Assembly (NCBI RefSeq): GCF_003144315.1
Contig: NZ_MPDK01000023.1
Location: 1-42,332, forward strand
From: Sulfoacidibacillus thermotolerans
GTDB taxonomy: Bacteria > Bacillota > Bacilli > Alicyclobacillales > SLC66
DNA: 42,332 nt
Direction: 5' to 3'
Shown here: positions 4,024 to 14,180 of the stretch, in pieces
Layout of the letters: the number at the start of each line of letters is the position of its first letter
Numbering within the stretch: position 1 is the first letter of the stretch
Program-made: the position numbers and the translations under genes
Notes under the pieces: model-generated
Database searches by the model: none
Told to the model about the DNA's origin: nothing
Seen by the model: only the letters and a program-made list of their open reading frames with translations

Positions 4024-6330
4024 TTATAGGTAAGGATTTTCATGTTTTGCTTTTAAGCGTTGCCAGCGGCGCTCTACTTCTTCTTCAAACTGATGCAAGA
4101 GTTCGTGGTTCTCTGGTTTTAGTAGATGTTTAGTTTTCCCCATTGTTGCTAGCCAATCACTTACAGGAATCCGTTTGTTCTTGTCCTCAGGATTATAAGT
4201 GATCGTCGTGATTCCATGTTCCACTTCATAGAGAGGGAAAAAGCAGCTATTAACAGCAGCACCAACAATTTCGTGTCCGGCATCGTCTGCTGCCTTCCAG
4301 TTAAGCGGGCAGGAGATGAGAATTTTACCATAGGCCATCCCTTCATGAGTTGCATACCACTGGGCTTTCGCAGCCTTTTTTATCAAATCCTGAGGATATG
4401 TTTCTACTCCAGTAAAAACATAGGGGATGTTCGTGGCTGCCATAATTTGCGGCGTGTCTTTGTGTTGAAAAGTTTTGCCGTGTTCATATTTTCCTACACC
4501 TGATGTCGAGGTCATATGACCAAGCGGTGTGGAATAGGACAATTGTGAACCCGTGTTCATATATCCTTCATTGTCATACTCAAGGATAATCATTTTATGG
4601 TCGCGCAGCGCCGTACCGATGGCAGATCCCATGCCGATATCCATTCCTCCATCGCCAGTTACCATGAGAAAAGTGACATCGTCATGAACTTTAATTTCAC
4701 CTCTTCGTTTGCGCTCAAAAAACATTTCAACGATACCAGACAACGTGGCCGCACCATTTTGAAATAAGTTGTGAATGTAAGTTACGCGATGGGAAGAGAA
4801 TGGATATCCAGTAGTGGTAACCATTGCACACCCTGTTTGGTATAATACGACTACATCCCCTTCTATTCCCTTAAGAAATGTATTAATACCAGGAAATATA
4901 CCGCATCCAGGACATGCACCATGGCCCGGTGCCATGCGATTTGCTTTTGCGGTAAGTGCGCGTAGCGGTGGGGCTTTTACTTTTAATTGTCCACTTGCTG
5001 GATCTTTTGCAACTTCTATAAAGCCTGTCGTTTGATTTTTTGGCAATGATTGTGTGCGTTCTGCCGGGGCGAGATTGGGGTCACCTGGATTGACTCCGTA
5101 GTAGTCAAACTGGCGAACTGCTTTCCCTGCGAGTGCGTCTAAGCAAAGTTCAAAGAAATGGTCTGCATCGTCTGGATAAAAATCACGTCCGCCCAAACCA
5201 TAAATGCGGGTGAGCACGGTTGCATTTGCATGAATTTCTTGTAGAGCTGATTTGATTTCATGTGTGATGTTTGCTCCGTGTCCGCCATATGCATCTGCAC
5301 GTTCTCCGACGAGAACGATCTTCGCATTTTTGAGTGCTTCTTGAATCGCGCGTTTAGGGAATGGGCGTAGCAGAACAGGGGTGAGTACTCCGGCTTTGAT
5401 CCCTTTTGCGCGCAAATGATCTACAGTATCTTTTGCAGTGTCGGCTGCAGAATTGAGTAGGACTACGACAACTTCTGCATCGTCCATAGAATATTTGTTT
5501 ACCACATCGTAGTAACGTCCGCTCATTTGTGCAAATTCGGAAGCAATCGTTTGAAAGACGGCTTCGGCGCGATACATCGCTTCTGATTGCATGTAGCGGG
5601 TATTGATGAGGTCTGGATCATTCATATATGGGCCAATTGTGACGACATGTTCTAGATCTAACGCATCGATGGGAGGTTTTGGCATGTCACCGACAAATGC
5701 TTGTACGTCGGCGTTCTGCGTGAAATACTGTACCCGCCGTTTCTGATGTGATGTGAAAAACCCATCAGATGCAACAATTACAGGAAGCCTCACCTCTGCA
5801 TGTTCAGCTAAGCGCAAGGCAATCAAGTTCAGATCATAGACAGCTTGTGGATCTTTTGCTAGTAAAATGGGCCAACCGATATTTAAACCATAATATAGAT
5901 CAGAGTGATCGCCGCGAATGTCAAGGGGACCTGACACCGCACGAGTGACGAGATTTAACACCATTGGGAAACGCGTACCCGATTGAACGGGCATTTCTTC
6001 GAGCATATAGAGAAATCCTTGAGCCGATGTTGCGTTAAATACGCGTCCCCCCGCTGCTGCTGCCCCATAGCAGATGCCAGCTGAACCATGTTCTCCGTCT
6101 GCCGGGATCATCACGATGTGGTGCTCCCCGTTTGCTTTCATTTCATCAAGGTATTCTGCAATTTCTGTCGATGGAGTAATAGGAAAATAACCCATAACAT
6201 GATAATCGATTTGAGCAGCAGCTTTGGCAGCCATTTCATTTCCTGAACGAAAATCGGTAGTTTGATCCACGCGTCGCTGTGCAGATCTATTTCGTGTTCG
6301 CACATCCTCTTCTTGCAGGGCCATGTTCAT
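4024..6330 (-). CDS. 2-oxoacid:ferredoxin oxidoreductase, fused alpha-beta subunit
   Basis: Thiamine diphosphate enzyme that oxidatively decarboxylates a 2-oxoacid (pyruvate or similar) to acyl-CoA, reducing ferredoxin. Residues about 25-400 are the alpha (PorA-like) part, with GNEMAAKAA, the substrate loop GYFPITPSTEIAEYL and the domain II region. Residues about 455-768 are the beta part, with the CPGC pair near 472-475 and the TPP/Mg motif GDGGMDIGMGSAIGTA near 560. The usual separate alpha and beta genes are fused. An RBS (GAGGAGAT) precedes ATG 6330, with a second in-frame ATG six bases on. The gamma-delta gene lies directly upstream, 27 bases away, so both are one operon. Substrate specificity cannot be fixed from sequence alone. 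Confidence 0.88.
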   Translation of the reverse strand: MNMALQEEDVRTRNRSAQRRVDQTTDFRSGNEMAAKAAAQIDYHVMGYFPITPSTEIAEYLDEMKANGEHHIVMIPADGEHGSAGICYGAAAAGGRVFNATSAQGFLYMLEEMPVQSGTRFPMVLNLVTRAVSGPLDIRGDHSDLYYGLNIGWPILLAKDPQAVYDLNLIALRLAEHAEVRLPVIVASDGFFTSHQKRRVQYFTQNADVQAFVGDMPKPPIDALDLEHVVTIGPYMNDPDLINTRYMQSEAMYRAEAVFQTIASEFAQMSGRYYDVVNKYSMDDAEVVVVLLNSAADTAKDTVDHLRAKGIKAGVLTPVLLRPFPKRAIQEALKNAKIVLVGERADAYGGHGANITHEIKSALQEIHANATVLTRIYGLGGRDFYPDDADHFFELCLDALAGKAVRQFDYYGVNPGDPNLAPAERTQSLPKNQTTGFIEVAKDPASGQLKVKAPPLRALTAKANRMAPGHGACPGCGIFPGINTFLKGIEGDVVVLYQTGCAMVTTTGYPFSSHRVTYIHNLFQNGAATLSGIVEMFFERKRRGEIKVHDDVTFLMVTGDGGMDIGMGSAIGTALRDHKMIILEYDNEGYMNTGSQLSYSTPLGHMTSTSGVGKYEHGKTFQHKDTPQIMAATNIPYVFTGVETYPQDLIKKAAKAQWYATHEGMAYGKILISCPLNWKAADDAGHEIVGAAVNSCFFPLYEVEHGITTITYNPEDKNKRIPVSDWLATMGKTKHLLKPENHELLHQFEEEVERRWQRLKAKHENPYL

Positions 6331-6357
6331 TCATCTCCTCGTAGTAGTGACTACAAA

Positions 6358-7359
6358 TTAGGCGCCAATCGAGTGTTTCACTCGATTTTCATCCGCGTAA
6401 CCATCTATTTCGCGCAATGCCTGGAGTGCATCTGTCGGGCAAGCGCTGATACAACGTAAACATCCTTTACAATACTGATAGTCAATTCCTTTTAAATATT
6501 GGAAAGCCCTACCACGCTCGTCTTGTCTCGATTCCCACACAAAGCACATGTCTGGACACACTTGATCGCATGCAGCACAATGAATACACGCGTCTTTCTC
6601 AAAAGCAGGTAGGAAACCAGAGCGTGAAGCACTGAGGTCACGACTGATCGAGTTGCCGGGATTGATGATTGCACCACCTAGTGGTTGTGTTTCGTAACCT
6701 AGTGTTGAGATCGGGTGTGCAAACGGCACGTGAATTTCCTTGTGTTGTGGCTCATAAGATACAGTGCGGCCTTCACGAAAGCCGCGGTCGAAAGTGCGTA
6801 GATTGGCTTCTGCTAAAGCGGGATACTTCTTTCCAAACGTTTCAGAGATGACTTTTTTGACTGCATTTTCGTCGAGAAAACTTATTGCGTGGCAGATTGC
6901 GCCAAGCATAGCAGTGTTGACACGTGTTTTTTCTTCTACTGAGATTTGCAGCGCGTCAATACATACGATCGTGCCAGACTTCATTTTGGTGATCTGGCGG
7001 ATATCCTCTGGCGTTTTTGCGGTGTTGACGATCAAGGTACCATCTGGTTGTAGACCTGCGATACAGTTTTGCGTGCGCAAGAGAGATTCGTGAAAAACCG
7101 CCACGATATGAGGTTCTTCAATCGGCGAAGAAGATCGGATTTCTGTCTCTGGAGCTGCAAAGCGAATGAATGTTTTTACAGGGGTGCCTTTCTTCTCAGA
7201 TCCATAAGAAGAAAAGTTAGATCCATTTAACCCCATTTGCAGTACGCCAGCTTCTGCAAGCATTTTCCCTGCCAAGTTTGCGCCGAGTCCGCCGATGGAT
7301 TCCATACGGATCTCATAAAAGCCCGCTTCGTTCGTATGCGAGCGAAGATCACTCGTCAT
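6358..7359 (-). CDS. 2-oxoacid:ferredoxin oxidoreductase, fused gamma-delta subunit
   Basis: Companion of the alpha-beta gene. Residues 1-190 form the gamma domain (IGGLGANLAGKMLAEAG, NGSNFSSYGSEKKGTPV), which binds CoA. The C-terminal 90 residues form a 2[4Fe-4S] ferredoxin-like delta domain with CIHCAACDQVCP near 257-268 and CKGCLRCISACP near 297-308. Both have the CX2CX2CX3CP pattern, so two clusters can carry electrons to ferredoxin. An excellent RBS (GAGGAGGT) lies 8 bases before ATG 7359. It is the first gene of the operon, and a palindrome at 7436-7447 lies about 80 bases upstream. Confidence 0.88.
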   Translation of the reverse strand: MTSDLRSHTNEAGFYEIRMESIGGLGANLAGKMLAEAGVLQMGLNGSNFSSYGSEKKGTPVKTFIRFAAPETEIRSSSPIEEPHIVAVFHESLLRTQNCIAGLQPDGTLIVNTAKTPEDIRQITKMKSGTIVCIDALQISVEEKTRVNTAMLGAICHAISFLDENAVKKVISETFGKKYPALAEANLRTFDRGFREGRTVSYEPQHKEIHVPFAHPISTLGYETQPLGGAIINPGNSISRDLSASRSGFLPAFEKDACIHCAACDQVCPDMCFVWESRQDERGRAFQYLKGIDYQYCKGCLRCISACPTDALQALREIDGYADENRVKHSIGA

Positions 7360-7687: not shown

Positions 7688-8893
7688 CTAAGGAAGATTT
7701 GAGTACCCGTGTTTGGTTTTCCATAGGAAGTATTTCTCAAATAGACGTTTCCCTTCATCGTAGAGCGGATTGGGTAGAATCGCAGCAAATTCTCGCGGCT
7801 TCATCAGGTGATTGCTCACGATTATGACTTCTTTATGTCCGGCGTCCATTACACACAATCCTGGAATCTTAACAAATGGTCGGCTCTTGAGATCGATTTT
7901 ATCGTTTACTAATTTGGCAATGTTTTCGCCCACTGTTTTTCCAGCCTCGTCGGCAGGGAATCCTGTTTTTGGGACGCCAATAGCGATGGGTGTAACAAAT
8001 GGGGCAGGAACGTCAATTGCGATACCTGCGGCAAATATATTGCTGTATGTTTTGTGTTGGTACGTATCATGCACCGGTACATAGCCTTTTGCATTGCCGA
8101 TGCCGGGTGAATTACGTATGACATCCTGTCCAAGAAAAGGTGGCATAATCATGGAAAATACGAACGGTAGGCGTCTGCCATCGGCAAGTATGATTTCATT
8201 TGGCGTCACTTCCACCAGTTCTGCATTTTCAATATAATGGATGTGTAAAGAATCCATAAACTTACGCAATAAGGAAGTTGCTCCTGCCATTCCGCCAATG
8301 CCAAAATGCCCGAGAAAAGGTTCTGGTGTTATCCACGTTAGCTCTACACGGTCGCGTACACCACGCTTGCGTAAGTTGTATTCAAAGTTAAACAAAAATT
8401 CATATGCTGCGCCTGTACACCCAGCTGCTGGCGCAGCTCCGATTACTACAGGGCCGGGATTTTCAACAAGGCGATCAAAATGCTCGCGAATGGCTAGTGC
8501 GTCATTTGGCGTGCATACGCATTGTGTATAGCCTGTTTTAGGGCCTAGACCGGGCAAGGAATAATCAAGAGCAGGACCTGTCGCGATGACGAGATAATCA
8601 TAGAGAAAGTCGCCTGCTGTCGTTTCTACACGATTGTTTACTGCGTCAATTTTGGTTGCGGTTGCATGAACAAATTCAATTCCGTGAGATTCTAAAATGG
8701 GACGTAGCGGTAAGCTGATGTCTTCAATCTCCCGCTCGCGAAAAGGCACCCAGATTAAAGATGGTACAAATAAGAAATTCTCTCTGTTTGAAACGACGAT
8801 CACACGATGACGATCGTCATGCAGTCTGCGCTTAATTTCAAGAGCGCTCGTCAGTCCAGCGAAGTTTCCGCCTATTACAAGAATGGTGGCCAT
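7688..8893 (-). CDS. sqr: Sulfide:quinone oxidoreductase (SQR)
   Basis: FAD-dependent membrane-associated enzyme that oxidises sulfide to polysulfide/sulfur and reduces quinone. The 401-residue protein opens with the dinucleotide fold VIGGNFAGLTSALEI. It has cysteines at 125/127 (QCVC), 159 (GCTG) and 347 (GLCVMDAG), close to the three redox-active cysteines of Acidithiobacillus SQR (128, 160, 356). That separates it from ordinary NADH dehydrogenases. The FAD region IFAAGIAIDVPAPF and an amphipathic C-terminus fit the family. ATG 8893 is chosen because AAAGGGGAT precedes it by seven bases; the in-frame GTG at 8911 lies before that site. A perfect hairpin covers the ribosome site. Function is by homology and cysteine pattern. 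Confidence 0.82.
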   Translation of the reverse strand: MATILVIGGNFAGLTSALEIKRRLHDDRHRVIVVSNRENFLFVPSLIWVPFREREIEDISLPLRPILESHGIEFVHATATKIDAVNNRVETTAGDFLYDYLVIATGPALDYSLPGLGPKTGYTQCVCTPNDALAIREHFDRLVENPGPVVIGAAPAAGCTGAAYEFLFNFEYNLRKRGVRDRVELTWITPEPFLGHFGIGGMAGATSLLRKFMDSLHIHYIENAELVEVTPNEIILADGRRLPFVFSMIMPPFLGQDVIRNSPGIGNAKGYVPVHDTYQHKTYSNIFAAGIAIDVPAPFVTPIAIGVPKTGFPADEAGKTVGENIAKLVNDKIDLKSRPFVKIPGLCVMDAGHKEVIIVSNHLMKPREFAAILPNPLYDEGKRLFEKYFLWKTKHGYSNLP

Positions 8894-8898
8894 ACTCT

Positions 8899-8946
8899 TA
8901 TCCCCTTTCACATCTACACCACGATTGTAAGATGTGAAAGGGGATA
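8899..8946 (-). promoter_or_regulatory. 17-bp inverted repeat sequestering the sqr ribosome binding site
   Basis: Arms 8899-8915 and 8930-8946 are perfectly complementary over 17 bp, with a 14-nt loop. In the minus-strand transcript the 3' arm contains the AAAGGGG ribosome site of sqr and ends five bases before the ATG. The hairpin would hide the site unless opened or unless transcription starts inside it. There is no U-tract, so it is not a normal terminator. It could instead be a DNA operator. Confidence 0.75.
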
Positions 8947-9022: not shown

Positions 9023-10240
9023 TTAAGAAGCGTGATTTACGAGAGTAGTTTGTTGGATAAAATCAATCAACTGCTGCGCGACAGCCTCGCCTTGCACGAT
9101 GCATTCAGGGATTTCTATTCCCTCATAGCCAGCACCAGCAAGAAGGATTCCTGGAAAGCGTTCGGTTAGTAACTGGCGAATCGCGACCACGCGTTCGTGA
9201 TGATCGGCTGTGTATTGGGGGATGGCATTGGGCCAACGCTTGATCAATACTCGACCGGGTGTTGCGTTGATTTGCATCAGGGTTCGCAAGTCTTCACGCA
9301 CTCGATGAGTCATCTCAAAATCAGAACAGAGAGCCATCTCCTCCTGTCCGACTCCACCAAGAAAGCAGCGCAGGGCGATGGCACCGTCTTTTGTGCTGTG
9401 TGGCCATTTTGAGGACTGGAATGTGCATGCGGTGATGGCGTGAGGTTCCGTCTTTGGCACGATGAATCCGGCTCCTTTCAGGTTTGTGGTGTCAACCTGA
9501 TCAGGTAAAAAGAGCAAGGTTACCGTAGCGACAGAGCTGTATAAAATGCAATTGAGTGCATGTTTGACTTCCTCGTCGGGCAGTAACTGTGCCGCAACGA
9601 ATGGAGGGACTGTAAGGATCACGCCATCAGCTTCAAGAGTCGTACCGTTGGTAAGGTGAATGGTATAGGCTGAGGAGTTAGAATCAACAGAGGGATTCTC
9701 TGCGTTTTTGTTGATGCGAACGACGCGTACACCTAGGCGAATGTGTTCTTCACCAATTGCGAGCGCGAGCGCATCGATGAGTGTTTGCAACCCTTGGCGA
9801 AAGGTTAAAAATGTGCTTTTGGGCAGTGCAAAAAACGATTTTGCAGCTTCTTTTGCCTCAGGTAAAGGAGCTGAGATGAGCGTTTGTTCGAGAAAAGGGA
9901 TGCCCATTAATGTTCCGGGAGGTAAAGGGAATAAGTGGTTATCTTGTGCGAGATAGGTTTGATTAGCCTCTGGTCCCATTCCGACAATGCGTTCAGAGAG
10001 TCCAAGCTTGTCACATAAACGAAGGATTGCCGCTCGATCAGCTAAGAAGGACTCAGGCCCACGTTCAACAATATTCCCATTGACCTTTGTGGATTTGATT
10101 TTACCACCGAGTCGTGGTTCGCGCTCTAGGATCGTCACTTCCAGGTTTTTTCGGTCGCTTGTCGACAGTAGGGTATAGGCAGCTGTAAGTCCAGTGATTC
10201 CACCGCCTATGACAAAAACGCGCTTTGTCCGATCTGTCAT
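9023..10240 (-). CDS. cgoX: Coproporphyrinogen/protoporphyrinogen oxidase (HemY/CgoX type), internally shortened
   Basis: FAD enzyme of haem synthesis that oxidises coproporphyrinogen III (Firmicute route). The N-terminus has the FAD motif VIGGGITGLTAAYTL, then LGGKIKSTKVNG and RGPESFLADR. The C-terminus has the FAD-binding end ILLAGAGYEGIEIPECIVQG. The protein is 405 residues against about 470 for B. subtilis HemY. The missing block falls near residue 122-130, between LMGIPFLEQTLISAPL and FFALPKSTFLTFRQGLQTL. There the family normally has about 65 residues, including the LIEPLLSGIYAGD stretch of the substrate/membrane subdomain. The deletion is in frame. RBS AAAGGAGTG precedes ATG 10240. Activity is therefore uncertain. 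Upstream neighbours are the VIT transporter and cytochrome genes. Confidence 0.8.
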   Translation of the reverse strand: MTDRTKRVFVIGGGITGLTAAYTLLSTSDRKNLEVTILEREPRLGGKIKSTKVNGNIVERGPESFLADRAAILRLCDKLGLSERIVGMGPEANQTYLAQDNHLFPLPPGTLMGIPFLEQTLISAPLPEAKEAAKSFFALPKSTFLTFRQGLQTLIDALALAIGEEHIRLGVRVVRINKNAENPSVDSNSSAYTIHLTNGTTLEADGVILTVPPFVAAQLLPDEEVKHALNCILYSSVATVTLLFLPDQVDTTNLKGAGFIVPKTEPHAITACTFQSSKWPHSTKDGAIALRCFLGGVGQEEMALCSDFEMTHRVREDLRTLMQINATPGRVLIKRWPNAIPQYTADHHERVVAIRQLLTERFPGILLAGAGYEGIEIPECIVQGEAVAQQLIDFIQQTTLVNHAS

Positions 10241-10267: not shown

Positions 10268-10939
10268 CTAGACCATCAGTGAACTGAGCGAGCCAAGCCC
10301 GTAGGAAACAATTCCAACGAGAATTCCGACAGCCATCATTTCAAAGCCACTCTGCCACCAAGGACGCATCGTGACGAGTGATTTGACTGCACCGACCACA
10401 TAGTGAGCTGTGATGCTTACGACCGCAGCTGCAATAAACGCCGCTTGATGGGAGAGAAAAAACAACGGCACAAGCGGAATGAGTGCTCCGACAAGAGTAG
10501 AGAGGCCAGCAAACAGCATGGCATGCCATGGATTTTTCTTATGGTGGTCATGCACTTCTAAGTGCTCATTGAGCATCATTTGTTGGAAACGCTCGGGATT
10601 GCTTGCTAGGCGATCGACAATCCAGCGTGCCTCATCTTGCGAAAATCCATTTTCTATATACTCTTTGTGTAAAGTCCACTTATAATCCTCGAGATTTTGT
10701 GTAATTTGCTGGCGTTGATGAAGTAATTCACATTCCTTGACTTCGTTTTCGGAGCGAGCAGCAAGCCAGGCTCCGGCGCCCATAGAGAGTGTACTTGCTA
10801 TTGCGCCAAACAAGCCAGAGACTAGAATCATGCGATGATTATCTGTGAACCCAGATACGCCAGCAATCATTCCAAAGATCGCAGCTAATCCATCATTGAC
10901 TCCGTAAATTGCATCCCCCAACCAAAATCTTGCATTCAT
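10268..10939 (-). CDS. VIT/CCC1-family iron or manganese transporter
   Basis: Integral membrane protein of 223 residues in the VIT1/CCC1 family, which moves Fe2+ or Mn2+ across the membrane. The N-terminal signature GDAIYGVNDGLAAIFGMIAGVSG and an SMGAGAWLAARSENE helix are characteristic. A cytoplasmic Glu/His-rich helical segment (about 75-140) follows, then three hydrophobic segments to the C-terminus. ATG 10939 is chosen because homology starts there and it lies two bases after the stop of the upstream gene; a TTG 48 bases further upstream is in frame. No strong ribosome site is seen, so translation is probably coupled to the upstream small gene. Fe versus Mn cannot be decided. Confidence 0.85.
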   Translation of the reverse strand: MNARFWLGDAIYGVNDGLAAIFGMIAGVSGFTDNHRMILVSGLFGAIASTLSMGAGAWLAARSENEVKECELLHQRQQITQNLEDYKWTLHKEYIENGFSQDEARWIVDRLASNPERFQQMMLNEHLEVHDHHKKNPWHAMLFAGLSTLVGALIPLVPLFFLSHQAAFIAAAVVSITAHYVVGAVKSLVTMRPWWQSGFEMMAVGILVGIVSYGLGSLSSLMV

Positions 10940-10941
10940 AG

Positions 10942-11148
10942 TCAATGGATACGTTGACGACGATAGGCTTGACGGGCTGATGCCCAAATATTACCCGTAA
11001 CCCAAATTCCAAGCAGTAGAATTGGAATTCCATAGAGTAGATCTAGTTTTGCAGAGGTTGTAATTCCTTGATACACAACAGCAGTTCCATAGATACCGGC
11101 ACTAAGTGCGAGCAACCAGATTACCCACAATTTCAATCCTTTGCCCAT
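10942..11148 (-). CDS. Small two-helix membrane protein, unknown
   Basis: A 68-residue protein with two hydrophobic stretches (LWVIWLLALSAGIYGTAVVY and YGIPILLLGIWVTGNIW) and a basic C-terminal tail ending RRQRIH. I recognise no family. Of several in-frame starts, ATG 11148 is preferred because GAGGAG lies nine bases before it; the ATG at 11157 abuts that site. It sits between the cytochrome genes and the VIT transporter and ends two bases before the VIT start, so the two are probably coupled. An intergenic hairpin (11167-11199) lies just upstream. Confidence 0.6.
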   Translation of the reverse strand: MGKGLKLWVIWLLALSAGIYGTAVVYQGITTSAKLDLLYGIPILLLGIWVTGNIWASARQAYRRQRIH

Positions 11149-11166
11149 TGTTGTCATCTCCTCTTT

Positions 11167-11199
11167 GCTGTGATGTACACATTCTGTGTACATCACAGC
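11167..11199 (-). other. 15-bp perfect hairpin between cytochrome genes and the small membrane gene
   Basis: GCTGTGATGTACACA and its exact complement flank a 3-nt loop. On the minus strand the stem is followed immediately by AAAGAGGAG, the ribosome site of the next gene, not by a U-tract. It may separate or stabilise mRNA segments, or end part of the cytochrome transcript. Confidence 0.65.
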
Positions 11200-11232
11200 G
11201 CTTGATTGTTTGTTACTTGCAGTGTTTTTTGA

Positions 11233-12336
11233 CTATCCTGCCGTGCGAACGCCTCCTGCTGGTTTCGTGCTCGTTTGATCATAACAGGCTGGGATTGCGT
11301 TGGCGGTAGTCGTCACAGCGTGACCGCGAAACTCTTTTTTGCAGGATTCGGAAAGTGGGCAAGAAGCACAGGCATTTGTTTGTTCTAATCGTTTATACCA
11401 ATCTCTCCAAATTGCTCGATGTACAGGAAGTGCACGTGGCAACTTGTTGAGCCCAGGGATAAAGGGCACGAGAATCAGTAATAGGAACAAGAAGGCCACC
11501 GTGTACGCGACGATTTCATCACCCGATGATGAAGTGGATCCTGGGGGTACTTGGTAGAGGAATGTGTATGGCGTCAACCACCATGGGCCAGGATACGCTT
11601 GTTCATCATGGTTAATTCCCCATTGTTCACCCTTCATATCGATCGTTTTGGCATATTGGTGAAGGGCAGCACCTTGTAAGAATAAGAGATCATTTTGGAT
11701 ATTCCAGCGATAGACACCGTTATTCGTTTCACGATCGAGTGCCCCTGAAAGAAGTCCGGAACGTGCTAGTGCGAGTTCGTCGTTCATCATCAGTTGCACG
11801 GGTCCGTAATTCCCTGGAGGTACGACGACTTGCCCATTTTGCACGGTGGCTTTGTTCAGAGCGTTTGAAAAGTTGTTATCCCACGCTTGTTGTTGTGTAT
11901 ACGAAGCGAGGTTGTAAGTTTGAAGAGCCGTTTGTAACGCTGAGTCATTGGAAGCTGTCGCGAGCATTGACAGCGGCGTAAGTACATCGTCTGTGGCAGT
12001 GTTTAAATGGTAAGGAGTACCCCACCACGTCTGTGGAGAAAATGGTCCGATCGATTGGATGTTTTGAGCAACGCCGTGCCATCCATTGTTATAAGGAGGG
12101 CCATAAGAAGCCATCTCCCCTTGTCCGTCGAGATCGCCCAAAGCAGTTTGCATGATCAAAATGGGCTTTTGATTTGCAATGTCTTGGTTGGTGATGGCGG
12201 GACGATAAGGGGCGCCAAAGATTGCCGCGACACCAACGACAAGTACACCGACAAGTCCTAGACTGACCACGCCTTCTTTGATCATATCGAAGTCTTTTTG
12301 AGGAAAGCGCAAGGTATTTCGTTCAAAGTATTTCAT
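11233..12336 (-). CDS. Membrane partner of b6-type cytochrome, large extracytoplasmic domain
   Basis: Protein of 367 residues encoded directly after the cytochrome b gene (TGATG overlap; RBS AGAAGGTG). Residues 10-45 (FPQKDFDMIKEGVVSLG, then a membrane helix ending IFGAPYRP) resemble the first helix of cytochrome b6f subunit IV, but the quinol-site PEWY motif is absent. Residues 45-275 are predicted to lie outside the cell, rich in Asn, Gln and Trp, with no CXXCH haem motif. A second membrane helix spans about 276-297. The cytoplasmic tail has four cysteines (323, 326, 332, 351), a possible metal or cluster site. The subunit IV resemblance is my inference from a short stretch. Function is unknown beyond membership of the complex. 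Confidence 0.6.
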   Translation of the reverse strand: MKYFERNTLRFPQKDFDMIKEGVVSLGLVGVLVVGVAAIFGAPYRPAITNQDIANQKPILIMQTALGDLDGQGEMASYGPPYNNGWHGVAQNIQSIGPFSPQTWWGTPYHLNTATDDVLTPLSMLATASNDSALQTALQTYNLASYTQQQAWDNNFSNALNKATVQNGQVVVPPGNYGPVQLMMNDELALARSGLLSGALDRETNNGVYRWNIQNDLLFLQGAALHQYAKTIDMKGEQWGINHDEQAYPGPWWLTPYTFLYQVPPGSTSSSGDEIVAYTVAFLFLLLILVPFIPGLNKLPRALPVHRAIWRDWYKRLEQTNACASCPLSESCKKEFRGHAVTTTANAIPACYDQTSTKPAGGVRTAG

Positions 12337-12953
12337 CACTTCACACCTTCTTTTTGCTGGACGTGCGCTGCTTGGTAAGGAGGTACGACCCCTTTTGCTC
12401 TTACAGCAATCAAGTGCCAAGCCACAAGAACGATCAAGACCAAGGGTAAAACGGCGATGTGCAGTCCATAAACTTGCCCATTGTTCAGTATGTTTAGAAA
12501 TCCATCAAGACCAGCACCATTAAAAGCGTCTTTGCTCTGTACTTGATTCCATTGTGAGAAAAAGTCGCCACGCGATAAGTATCCTGTAAAAGCGGTTAAA
12601 ACAGACACGCCAAATGATAGGGCGCCAATCACCCAGGTGAGTGCGCGTCCTTCGCGCCATGACCCCATGAAAAATTGACCGACAAGATGCATGGTCATAA
12701 AGAAGAAGAAGGCCTGAACACTCCAAAAGTGCACTGATCGCAGAAAGTCGCCGGCAGATGAATACTGATACCAAGTAGGTCCGTATGCTGCCATGATGAC
12801 GCCGGAAAGTATGGTAAAAACAAGACTACTTAGTGTGAATACCCCAAAACTGTATACTAAGGAAGACACGTAAATAGGTTGTTCCGAAGGCAACAAGTTA
12901 TCCCAAGTCAGTTTCTCGGTGACTGTCGTGCGCATGCTTTTTGTCCAGTTCAT
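12336..12953 (-). CDS. Cytochrome b6-type di-haem membrane subunit
   Basis: A 205-residue cytochrome b N-terminal-domain protein with four predicted membrane helices. Haem-ligand histidines are His75/His89 and His165/His180. The 14- and 15-residue spacing of the two pairs matches b6-type rather than mitochondrial-type cytochrome b. It would carry electrons from menaquinol across the membrane. The RBS AAGGGTGA is six bases before ATG 12953. The gene overlaps the 38-residue gene upstream (ATGA) and the partner gene downstream (TGATG), so the three are tightly coupled. No Rieske protein or cytochrome c gene is in the window, so the acceptor is unknown. Confidence 0.85.
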   Translation of the reverse strand: MNWTKSMRTTVTEKLTWDNLLPSEQPIYVSSLVYSFGVFTLSSLVFTILSGVIMAAYGPTWYQYSSAGDFLRSVHFWSVQAFFFFMTMHLVGQFFMGSWREGRALTWVIGALSFGVSVLTAFTGYLSRGDFFSQWNQVQSKDAFNGAGLDGFLNILNNGQVYGLHIAVLPLVLIVLVAWHLIAVRAKGVVPPYQAAHVQQKEGVK

Positions 12954-13066
12954 TTTTTCTCACCCTTATCATGATGCGGATATTTTGCTGCAACAAAAAG
13001 GATGAAGACGATAAGCCATAAGTAGCCGACGTAATAATTGGGCCACGCATTCGAATAATCTACCAT
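12950..13066 (-). CDS. 38-residue single-helix membrane peptide of the b6 operon
   Basis: A short gene read from ATG 13066, with the RBS AAAGGAG seven bases upstream. The peptide starts MVDYSNAWPNYYVGY, has one hydrophobic helix (LWLIVFILFVAA) and a basic, His-containing tail (KYPHHDKGEKK). Its stop overlaps the cytochrome b start (ATGA). It is the first gene of the operon. By position and size it recalls the small single-helix subunits of b6f complexes or of bacterial oxidases, but I see no sequence match that would name it. Confidence 0.7.
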   Translation of the reverse strand: MVDYSNAWPNYYVGYLWLIVFILFVAAKYPHHDKGEKK

Positions 13067-13817: not shown

Positions 13818-14180
13818 ATGGGAAAAATGTCGTTATATGACCGACTGGGTGGGCAAGAAGGAATCATAAAAGTAGTCGATCAATTTTATGATTATGTTTT
13901 GGCGGATGGACGTGTCAACCACTTTTTTCGCAAGACTGACATGAAACGTCAACGCTTACATCAAAGTTTGTTTATTAGTTTTGCTACGGGTGGGCCCAAT
14001 CACTATACAGGGCAATCTATGCGCAAAGCACATGAAGGAATGAATTTGACAGATGAGCATTTTGATACCATTGTGGAGTTACTTGCACGAGCACTCCGCG
14101 ATTTTCATGTAGCAGAGACAGAGATTGTTGAAGTGGCAAACACCATTGAACCTCTTCGTAAAGATATTGTAGGAGCATAA
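13818..14180 (+). CDS. Group I truncated haemoglobin
   Basis: A 120-residue globin of the truncated (2/2) family, thought to bind O2 or NO and often to act as an NO dioxygenase. It starts SLYDRLGGQEGI, has a Tyr-rich B helix (FYDYVLADG, with candidate B10 Tyr at 24-26), the GGPNHYTG turn near 58-65, and the proximal histidine His72 in MRKAHEGM. Group I is suggested by the Gly-Gly pairs and short length. RBS AAGGGGGAT is six bases before ATG 13818. It is monocistronic, with a CRP/FNR-like promoter upstream and a terminator downstream, so oxygen- or NO-linked expression is likely. Confidence 0.88.
   Translation: MGKMSLYDRLGGQEGIIKVVDQFYDYVLADGRVNHFFRKTDMKRQRLHQSLFISFATGGPNHYTGQSMRKAHEGMNLTDEHFDTIVELLARALRDFHVAETEIVEVANTIEPLRKDIVGA

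Follow-up and report, generated by a model that had tools for sequence, protein, structure and literature searches.

What does a di-haem cytochrome of the b6 type do when its partner protein lacks the PEWY motif and no gene for a Rieske protein or a cytochrome c accompanies it? This question is raised by three overlapping genes, for a small peptide, a b6-type protein and a partner, on Sulfoacidibacillus thermotolerans contig NZ_MPDK01000023.1, of which the whole 42,332-nucleotide stretch analysed here is called the window. That this module is a real, conserved and distinct family in Bacillota, built on the b6/subunit IV core but lacking a Rieske protein, is well supported. Its function is moderately supported: the module may encode a Rieske-free quinone/copper-protein oxidoreductase, which during Fe(II) oxidation would most probably run uphill, from the copper protein to quinone, a specific proposal to which we give somewhat less than an even chance.

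All coordinates are positions in the window, and all genes of the module lie on its minus strand. As the earlier note on this DNA had described, the genes overlap, by 4 nucleotides (ATGA) between peptide and b6 and by 1 nucleotide (TGATG) between b6 and partner; for the partner, a longer frame starting at TTG and reaching 12420 is also present. Transmembrane helix is abbreviated TM, and the named loci are those of the contig scan described further below.

12950..13066, minus strand: 38-residue single-helix peptide, the module's first gene (open reading frame, ORF; all 15 named loci have a similar peptide directly ahead of the b6 gene)
12336..12953, minus strand: b6-type di-haem cytochrome b, 205 residues (four predicted hydrophobic stretches; His75, His89, His165 and His180; no Cys)
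11233..12336, minus strand: partner, 367 residues from ATG, read as TM E, an ef-loop insertion of about 190 residues, a GPWW loop, TM F, no TM G and a four-Cys tail
12211..12285, minus strand: partner TM E equivalent, residues about 18-42 (hydropathy; hhalign segment to canonical subunit IV)
11593..12210, minus strand: predicted outer (p-side) domain of the partner, residues about 43-248, between TM E and the GPWW loop; no CXXCH, no Cys
11542..11592, minus strand: PEWY-equivalent loop of the partner, PGPWWLTPYTFLYQVPP, residues 249-265, with a Pro 13 residues past the PEWY-Trp position
11461..11532, minus strand: partner TM F equivalent, residues about 269-292 (hydropathy; profile comparison)
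11284..11370, minus strand: four-Cys tail of the partner, C-x2-C-x5-C-x18-C, residues 323-351, predicted cytoplasmic, found in one subclass
10942..11157, minus strand: fourth gene, a small hydrophobic protein of about 70 residues (start codon uncertain; longest ORF to 11196; 13 of the 15 named loci show a similar sequence after the partner gene)

The b6 protein has the di-haem signature attributed to it earlier, His75 and His89 being spaced by 14 and His165 and His180 by 15. An alignment of 16 b6 proteins shows no variation at these four ligands, and all four are found in each of the 88 b6/cytochrome b sequences counted (distinct regions with more than about 140 matched residues, out of 126 ORFs, shorter and duplicate sequences having been dropped), so that the HHHH set marking the cytochrome b N-terminal domain is found in 51 of 51 module b6 proteins. 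The window b6 matches PF13631 (2.4e-14), PF00033 and cytochrome b6 chains in the PDB, its membership of the b6/IV fold family stands at 99.3%, and it shares 70-87% identity with the b6 proteins of classes I and II (defined below). The cd1 motif, in contrast, is rebuilt: the window protein reads GYLSRGD where the canonical one reads GYLLPWD, and LPWD is found in none of the 51 module proteins versus 32 of the 37 canonical ones, the other five carrying variants. The haem-ci position is occupied by Ser, and since the window b6 has no Cys at all it has no haem-ci Cys; among the 51 module proteins only the five class IV members carry a Cys at this position in TM A. In a maximum-likelihood tree of the 88 sequences, which is unrooted and comes from a quick search with no bootstrap and with long branches flagged, one branch (SH-aLRT 100) places the 51 module b6 proteins on one side and the 37 canonical sequences on the other.

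The partner is less easily placed, as it gave no significant match in Pfam, NCBIfam or the PDB sequences, and a profile search of the PDB sequences returned chance-level matches only. It contains two predicted hydrophobic stretches; residues 43-268 are acidic (8 Lys/Arg, 17 Asp/Glu) and the ends are rich in Lys and Arg, so by the positive-inside rule both ends should be cytoplasmic. Exactly four Cys are present (323, 326, 332 and 351), all in the C-terminal tail, and there is no CXXCH. The sequence thus agrees with the earlier description of an outer domain without a haem-attachment site, of a four-Cys tail and of a missing PEWY, GPWW being found at that position.

The same description had limited the likeness to subunit IV to the first helix, and this did not hold up when we compared partner profiles with canonical subunit IV sequences taken from relatives. 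In a first comparison the alignment covered the loop and TM F, PGPWW of the partners facing PDWY of the canonical sequences (probability 46.7, E 2e-4). With 42 partner and 29 canonical non-redundant rows, two separate segments, correctly ordered, were recovered (scores 33.3 and 24.0), and once insertion columns were removed a single alignment ran in order over TM E, the ef loop and TM F (probability 82.8, E 9.3e-6, score 38.4). Reversed controls scored 16.4 and 21.1 and 25 other families at most 25.6; this highest decoy is a small one-helix protein found upstream of class III modules, the next one scoring 18.5. A Pro 13 residues past the PEWY-Trp position is shared by 47 of the 50 partners and by 21 of the 29 canonical sequences. 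At the PEWY position itself, the 50 distinct partners (those with more than about 240 matched residues, shorter and duplicate ones having been dropped) show GPWW in 31, GAVW in 11, GPWY in 6 and GAWW in 2, with no acidic residue in any of them, whereas the 29 canonical sequences show PDWY in 13, PEWY in 12, APWY in 3 and PAWY in 1, with 25 acidic. Because 4 of the 29 canonical sequences also lack the acid, its loss alone is not decisive and excludes nothing. The canonical-type cytochrome b C-terminal domains of L107, L114 and L115 have APWY, that is, a Pro at the acidic position.

TM G was not found in the partner by hydropathy. We therefore best read the partner, from its sequence, as a remodelled relative of subunit IV with an ef-loop insertion of about 190 residues and without TM G. 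Some observations weigh against this placement: the removal of insertion columns was chosen post hoc, after the first two partial alignments; class IV partners alone gave no meaningful alignment with canonical subunit IV, and adding class IV rows to the partner profile lowered the score. The supporting alignment thus depends on the wider partner set with the insertion removed. Structure prediction of the whole partner was poor (18 sequences, mean pLDDT 55) and its fold search against the PDB gave no match at E <=0.001. The outer domain modelled by itself gave pLDDT 63, being confident in its middle, and Foldseek and VIA-align found no match to that model.

The module extends well beyond the window. 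A scan of genome contigs located 15 loci in 12 genomes (Alicyclobacillus ferrooxydans, A. tolerans, A. mengziensis, Alicyclobacillaceae I2511 and Bacillota metagenome-assembled genomes), and in all 15 of these named loci the peptide, b6 and partner occur together, which argues that the module is not a product of chance; the conserved fourth gene, absent from the earlier note, follows the partner gene in 13. Within the order, partner matches were obtained in 29 of 59 genomes, up to five in each, a count that includes fragments (G048, G055) and genomes which, judged by E-value, apparently hold class III or IV only (G032, G044, G049). In a phylum sample of 398 genomes the partner was found in 6 including the window's own: two belong to family f92, which is probably Sulfobacillus-like, its gene order fitting that of S. 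acidophilus TPY, and three to others (f107, f140). The partners fall into class I (four-Cys tail), class II (no tail), class III (about 40% identical to the window partner), class IV (about 24%) and an f92 type. Among plasmid records, neither the class I nor the class IV partner had a match.

Could a standard complex nevertheless be completed from elsewhere in the genome? Searches of the assembly (2.87 Mb, 135 contigs, 99.86% complete) found no other b6 gene, both PF13631 places falling in the window b6, and no match to PF00032, the model of canonical subunit IV. The Rieske model PF00355 has a single place in the genome, a 109-residue ORF directly after a gene that is sufB-like by eye, and the search with this model found no bc-type Rieske protein. 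The earlier statement that no Rieske or cytochrome c gene is present accordingly stands genome-wide for a bc-type Rieske protein and for PF13442 cytochrome c, of which there is no match, PF00034 and the cytochrome f models not having been searched. Since no bc-type Rieske protein, other b6 or PF00032 match was found, we reject a standard bc complex with its Rieske protein encoded elsewhere. The earlier note had named as counter-evidence a partner matching a known bc/b6f subunit together with such a Rieske gene; the first half is present in the form of a distant subunit IV homology, while no standard complex was found in the genome.

If neither of the usual high-potential partners is found, what could replace them? 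The window's genome has four COX1 genes. Two lie in quinol-oxidase-type clusters whose subunit II has no CuA motif. The other two clusters carry the CuA motif (CAEVCGPGH), and each adjoins a cupredoxin-like gene and a further lipoprotein-like gene; of the lipoprotein-like genes, the one beside L129 exceeds the Pfam cut-off for SoxE, sulfocyanin (29.5 versus 21). A two-sequence profile of the cupredoxin-like proteins was then searched over the 59 genomes of the order. A match was obtained in 19, and the module is present in 18 of these 19 versus 11 of the 40 others (Fisher p 8e-7). The association is kept when counted by genus (11 of 11 with a cupredoxin-like protein, 6 of 14 without, p 0.003) and within the order's other family, f2 (9 of 9 versus 4 of 32). 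Canonical subunit IV, on the other hand, does not track the module, which occurs in 12 of 24 genomes with it and 17 of 35 without it (p 1.0); it tracks PF13442 cytochrome c instead (23 of 24 versus 3 of 35, p 4e-12). Outside the order a cupredoxin-like protein is found in 2 of 5 module genomes, both of family f92. This association suggests that the outer redox partner of the module may be a copper-type protein.

Published transcript data favour the iron chain. In S. acidophilus TPY (PMC5114278), petB-1 stands at 150 on elemental sulfur and 4771 on FeSO4, and petC-1 at 471 and 6029 reads per kilobase per million (RPKM), about 32-fold and 13-fold higher on Fe(II). These two genes are probably this module, petC-1 being the partner: the L093 genes CtaA (PF02628), b6 and partner follow one another as the assembly protein gene, petB and petC do in TPY. 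TPY petC-1 is called a cytochrome c subunit, which is likely a misannotation; CXXCH is missing from the L093 partner. In S. thermosulfidooxidans, PMC6315122 reports that Sulth_2730 and Sulth_2731, annotated as 'cytochrome b/b6 domain', fall together with sulfocyanin and with most genes for cytochromes and oxidases once L. ferriphilum uses up the Fe(II); these two are candidate members of the module. Sulfocyanin has been proposed to act in iron oxidation (PMC4062416). For S. thermotolerans, PMC6803676 lists no bc1, two cytochrome b copies and three sulfocyanins, and a di-haem PetB homologue in Sulfobacillus operons without iron-sulfur protein or cytochrome c appears in Justice et al. 2014 (PMC4378227). 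Both papers describe bc1 as missing while cytochrome b genes are present, and both leave the route from Fe(II) to quinone and NADH in such Gram-positive acidophilic iron oxidisers open. In the open-access literature we found no description of the partner family. The module has therefore been partly noticed, Sulfobacillus petB without its partners having been in print since 2014; the partner, its relation to subunit IV and the family boundaries were worked out here.

The mechanism that we prefer would start from a b6f/bc core without Rieske protein and cytochrome c/f. In a cytochrome b the two haems bridge the membrane, and the cytoplasmic side can bind quinone. Haems bp and bn would thus carry electrons across the membrane between an outer copper protein and a quinone site on the cytoplasmic side, the inserted domain of the partner sitting where the Rieske head would move and the copper protein docking on the outer side. 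During Fe(II) oxidation, electrons would pass uphill from the copper protein to quinone, driven by the proton gradient, and may feed NADH formation in bacteria without a bc1 complex. The published Fe(II) induction favours the iron chain; by sequence, the electrons could run either way. Of the earlier suggestion of an undescribed quinone-linked redox complex, the first half fares well, with an apparently undescribed partner, a separate b6 branch and no PF00032, bc-type Rieske or PF13442 match in the genome, while the quinone link is presumed. With the partner, the family boundary, the motif definitions and the association with copper proteins and CuA oxidases in hand, the question of the uphill route in iron oxidisers becomes directly testable. 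How much of the Rieske/cytochrome b design can be taken away is a further question on which the module bears, as the haem ligands are kept and both examined Qo-side motifs are rebuilt.

Several points weigh against this proposal. Among the genomes of the order, 11 of the 40 without a cupredoxin-like protein keep the module and G056 has the protein without a module match, and the three more distant module genomes (f107, f140) also lack the protein. The co-occurrence statistics remove kinship to genus level only, with no species-tree correction, and module and cupredoxin-like protein could both simply follow an acidophilic iron/sulfur lifestyle. The name cupredoxin-like rests on a C-x6-H-x4-M ending recognised by eye, because of the two proteins in the window's genome one reaches 19.1 bits where the Pfam cut-off is 27 and the other has no Pfam match, with NCBIfam scores far below cut-off. 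Across classes I-IV the outer domain has no invariant His, Cys or Met, which makes docking of a copper protein a conjecture. For TPY, whose genes were equated with the module through gene order, PMC5114278 gives 4.9-fold for petC-1 by reverse-transcription PCR, RNA sequencing of one biological replicate and no induction of the adjoining cytochrome oxidase assembly protein gene; in S. thermosulfidooxidans the vast majority of cytochromes fell together (PMC6315122), so this response is not specific. Spectra of living, Fe(II)-reduced A. ferrooxydans and S. thermosulfidooxidans are dominated by a-type cytochromes according to PMC5143472, whose authors add that b-type cytochromes may escape detection. 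Finally, reducing a b haem from a high-potential copper site is energetically hard if no Rieske-type bifurcation takes place.

A further reading is a Rieske-free Q cycle, with a blue copper protein replacing the Rieske protein at an outer quinone site rebuilt from the GPWW loop and the inserted domain, and bifurcating, or in reverse joining, quinone chemistry between copper and haem bp. We hold this unlikely; were it true, it would be, to our knowledge, the first energy-conserving cytochrome b complex with copper instead of a Rieske cluster as high-potential partner, and the so far missing enzyme for the uphill route in Gram-positive acidophilic iron oxidisers. The path proposed above could also run in reverse. 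A downhill quinol:copper-protein oxidoreductase would then take the place of bc1 and cytochrome c, passing electrons from quinol through the b haems to the copper protein and on to a CuA oxidase, which we regard as doubtful. Of the 29 module genomes, 17 have no match to canonical subunit IV, and 16 of these lack a PF13442 match too; the module lies within 20 kb of a CuA cluster on one contig in two of the 19 genomes with the cupredoxin-like protein (about 4 kb in G050, about 15 kb in G030); and the window's genome combines CuA oxidases and cupredoxin-like genes with no PF13442 match. However, its two quinol-oxidase-type COX1 clusters already provide a bypass, 12 of the 24 canonical-bc genomes keep the module as well, and the rise reported for TPY on Fe(II) rather than on sulfur fits an iron role better.

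The remaining readings fare worse when set against the neighbourhoods of the module (42 stretches, 41 with a partner ORF, L011 and L079 being the same place). Electrons supplied by a neighbouring sulfide:quinone oxidoreductase (SQR), as the earlier note had suggested, would explain the SQR-like gene at 7688-8911 (Pyr_redox_2; best NCBIfam match an SQR model, 116 of 525 bits) and similar genes near the module at 6 of the 42 stretches. Four of these six nonetheless belong to one syntenic block, SQR itself reduces quinone and needs no cytochrome b, and the matched TPY genes are reported as higher on FeSO4 than on sulfur; as the one block accounts for most cases, we reject this link, which is very improbable. 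The tail offers another connection, in that its four Cys could hold an Fe-S cluster exchanging electrons between quinone and a cytoplasmic ferredoxin system; genes at 4024-7359 that look by eye like a 2-oxoacid oxidoreductase could encode one. The tail is predicted cytoplasmic by the positive-inside rule, it is found in 18 of the 31 PGPWW partners, and homologues of both oxidoreductase-like genes lie near the module at four loci including the window. Yet those neighbours occur in a single syntenic block only, CxxCP-type motifs bind zinc as well, and the tail is missing from 32 of the 50 partners. Its presence in 18 of 50 makes it the mark of a subclass: the four-Cys cytoplasmic tail noted earlier stands for the window partner, and its generality does not. 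On the same ground we reject a mechanism centred on a redox tail, and a link of this kind to the cytoplasm seems quite improbable. Equally remote as the SQR link is a decayed bc complex, either a non-catalytic relic or a protein for haem handling or assembly. The lack of the acidic PEWY residue, of LPWD, of the haem-ci Cys and of bc-type Rieske and PF13442 matches would fit decay, as would a HemG-like gene at 9023-10240 in the window. It is hard to reconcile with four haem ligands kept in 51 of 51 proteins, with the strong conservation of b6 in classes I and II and several copies in many genomes, with the high Fe(II) induction reported for TPY, and with the lack of any HemG homologue in the other 15 named loci.

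Comparison with known systems places the module nearest to the Bacillota QcrABC/b6f-type complex, with which it shares a split b6 and subunit IV layout, the four haem ligands, the Pro at +13 of most partners and, as profile comparison supports, TM E and TM F. A small one-helix protein, like the module's peptide, is also part of b6f. It differs in that no bc-type Rieske or PF13442 protein was found, in Pro or Ala at the acidic position, in the missing LPWD, in the insertion, in the lack of TM G and in the side of the b6 branch on which it falls. The best curated family for b6 is ExtP (NF040969), a b-type cytochrome of selenite/tellurite reduction operons, with 70.8 bits (80.4 for class IV); the module proteins are nevertheless far below its cut-off of 290, and the window operon shows no c-type cytochrome. 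SoxC-type cytochrome b (NF041076) has weak similarity to b6, at 27.2 bits against a 740-bit cut-off. Archaeal chains of the SoxC type do use copper carriers such as sulfocyanin, but they keep a Rieske protein. The Sulfobacillus 'PetB without Rieske' (PMC4378227) and TPY petB-1/petC-1 (PMC5114278) are probably the same family, the gene order matching; the subunit IV relation of the partner, the breadth of the family and the copper link do not appear in the relevant parts of those reports.

Some further observations concern the surroundings of the module. In the window its flanks hold the HemG-like gene, read as a protoporphyrinogen oxidase, a VIT-family protein at 10268-10987 and, by eye, a globin-like small protein at 13818-14180. 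A TIGR04053-type radical SAM/SPASM protein scoring above cut-off lies near the module at L003 (9652-10743) and five other stretches (6 of 42), with the haem b synthase AhbD the next match, below cut-off. Response regulators, by eye, are found near it at 9 of the 42 stretches (L012-L016, L070, L075, L076 and L094), making two-component regulation plausible. The tail motif has a sub-threshold match to the transposase family PF13751 (E 0.095), such Cys motifs not being specific to redox proteins.

Classes III and IV show their own variations. The class III loci L004, L069 (7184-7426) and L078 have in common a different one-helix protein of about 80 residues, which may replace the 38-residue peptide. 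Class IV modules (L062, 4802-6407, and L063-L067) keep the haem-ci Cys in b6 and have GPWY in the partner; some lie near genes resembling, by eye, CcdA, TlpA-type thioredoxins, Lgt, CsoR or a Cu-ATPase, and a sulfocyanin/plastocyanin-like gene is found at L062, so that class IV surroundings suggest copper or thiol chemistry. In the window, the gap between the partner gene and the fourth gene contains a 16-pair palindrome at 11166-11200 (TGTGATGTACACA...TGTGTACATCACA), which could be an operator, an attenuator or a processing site.

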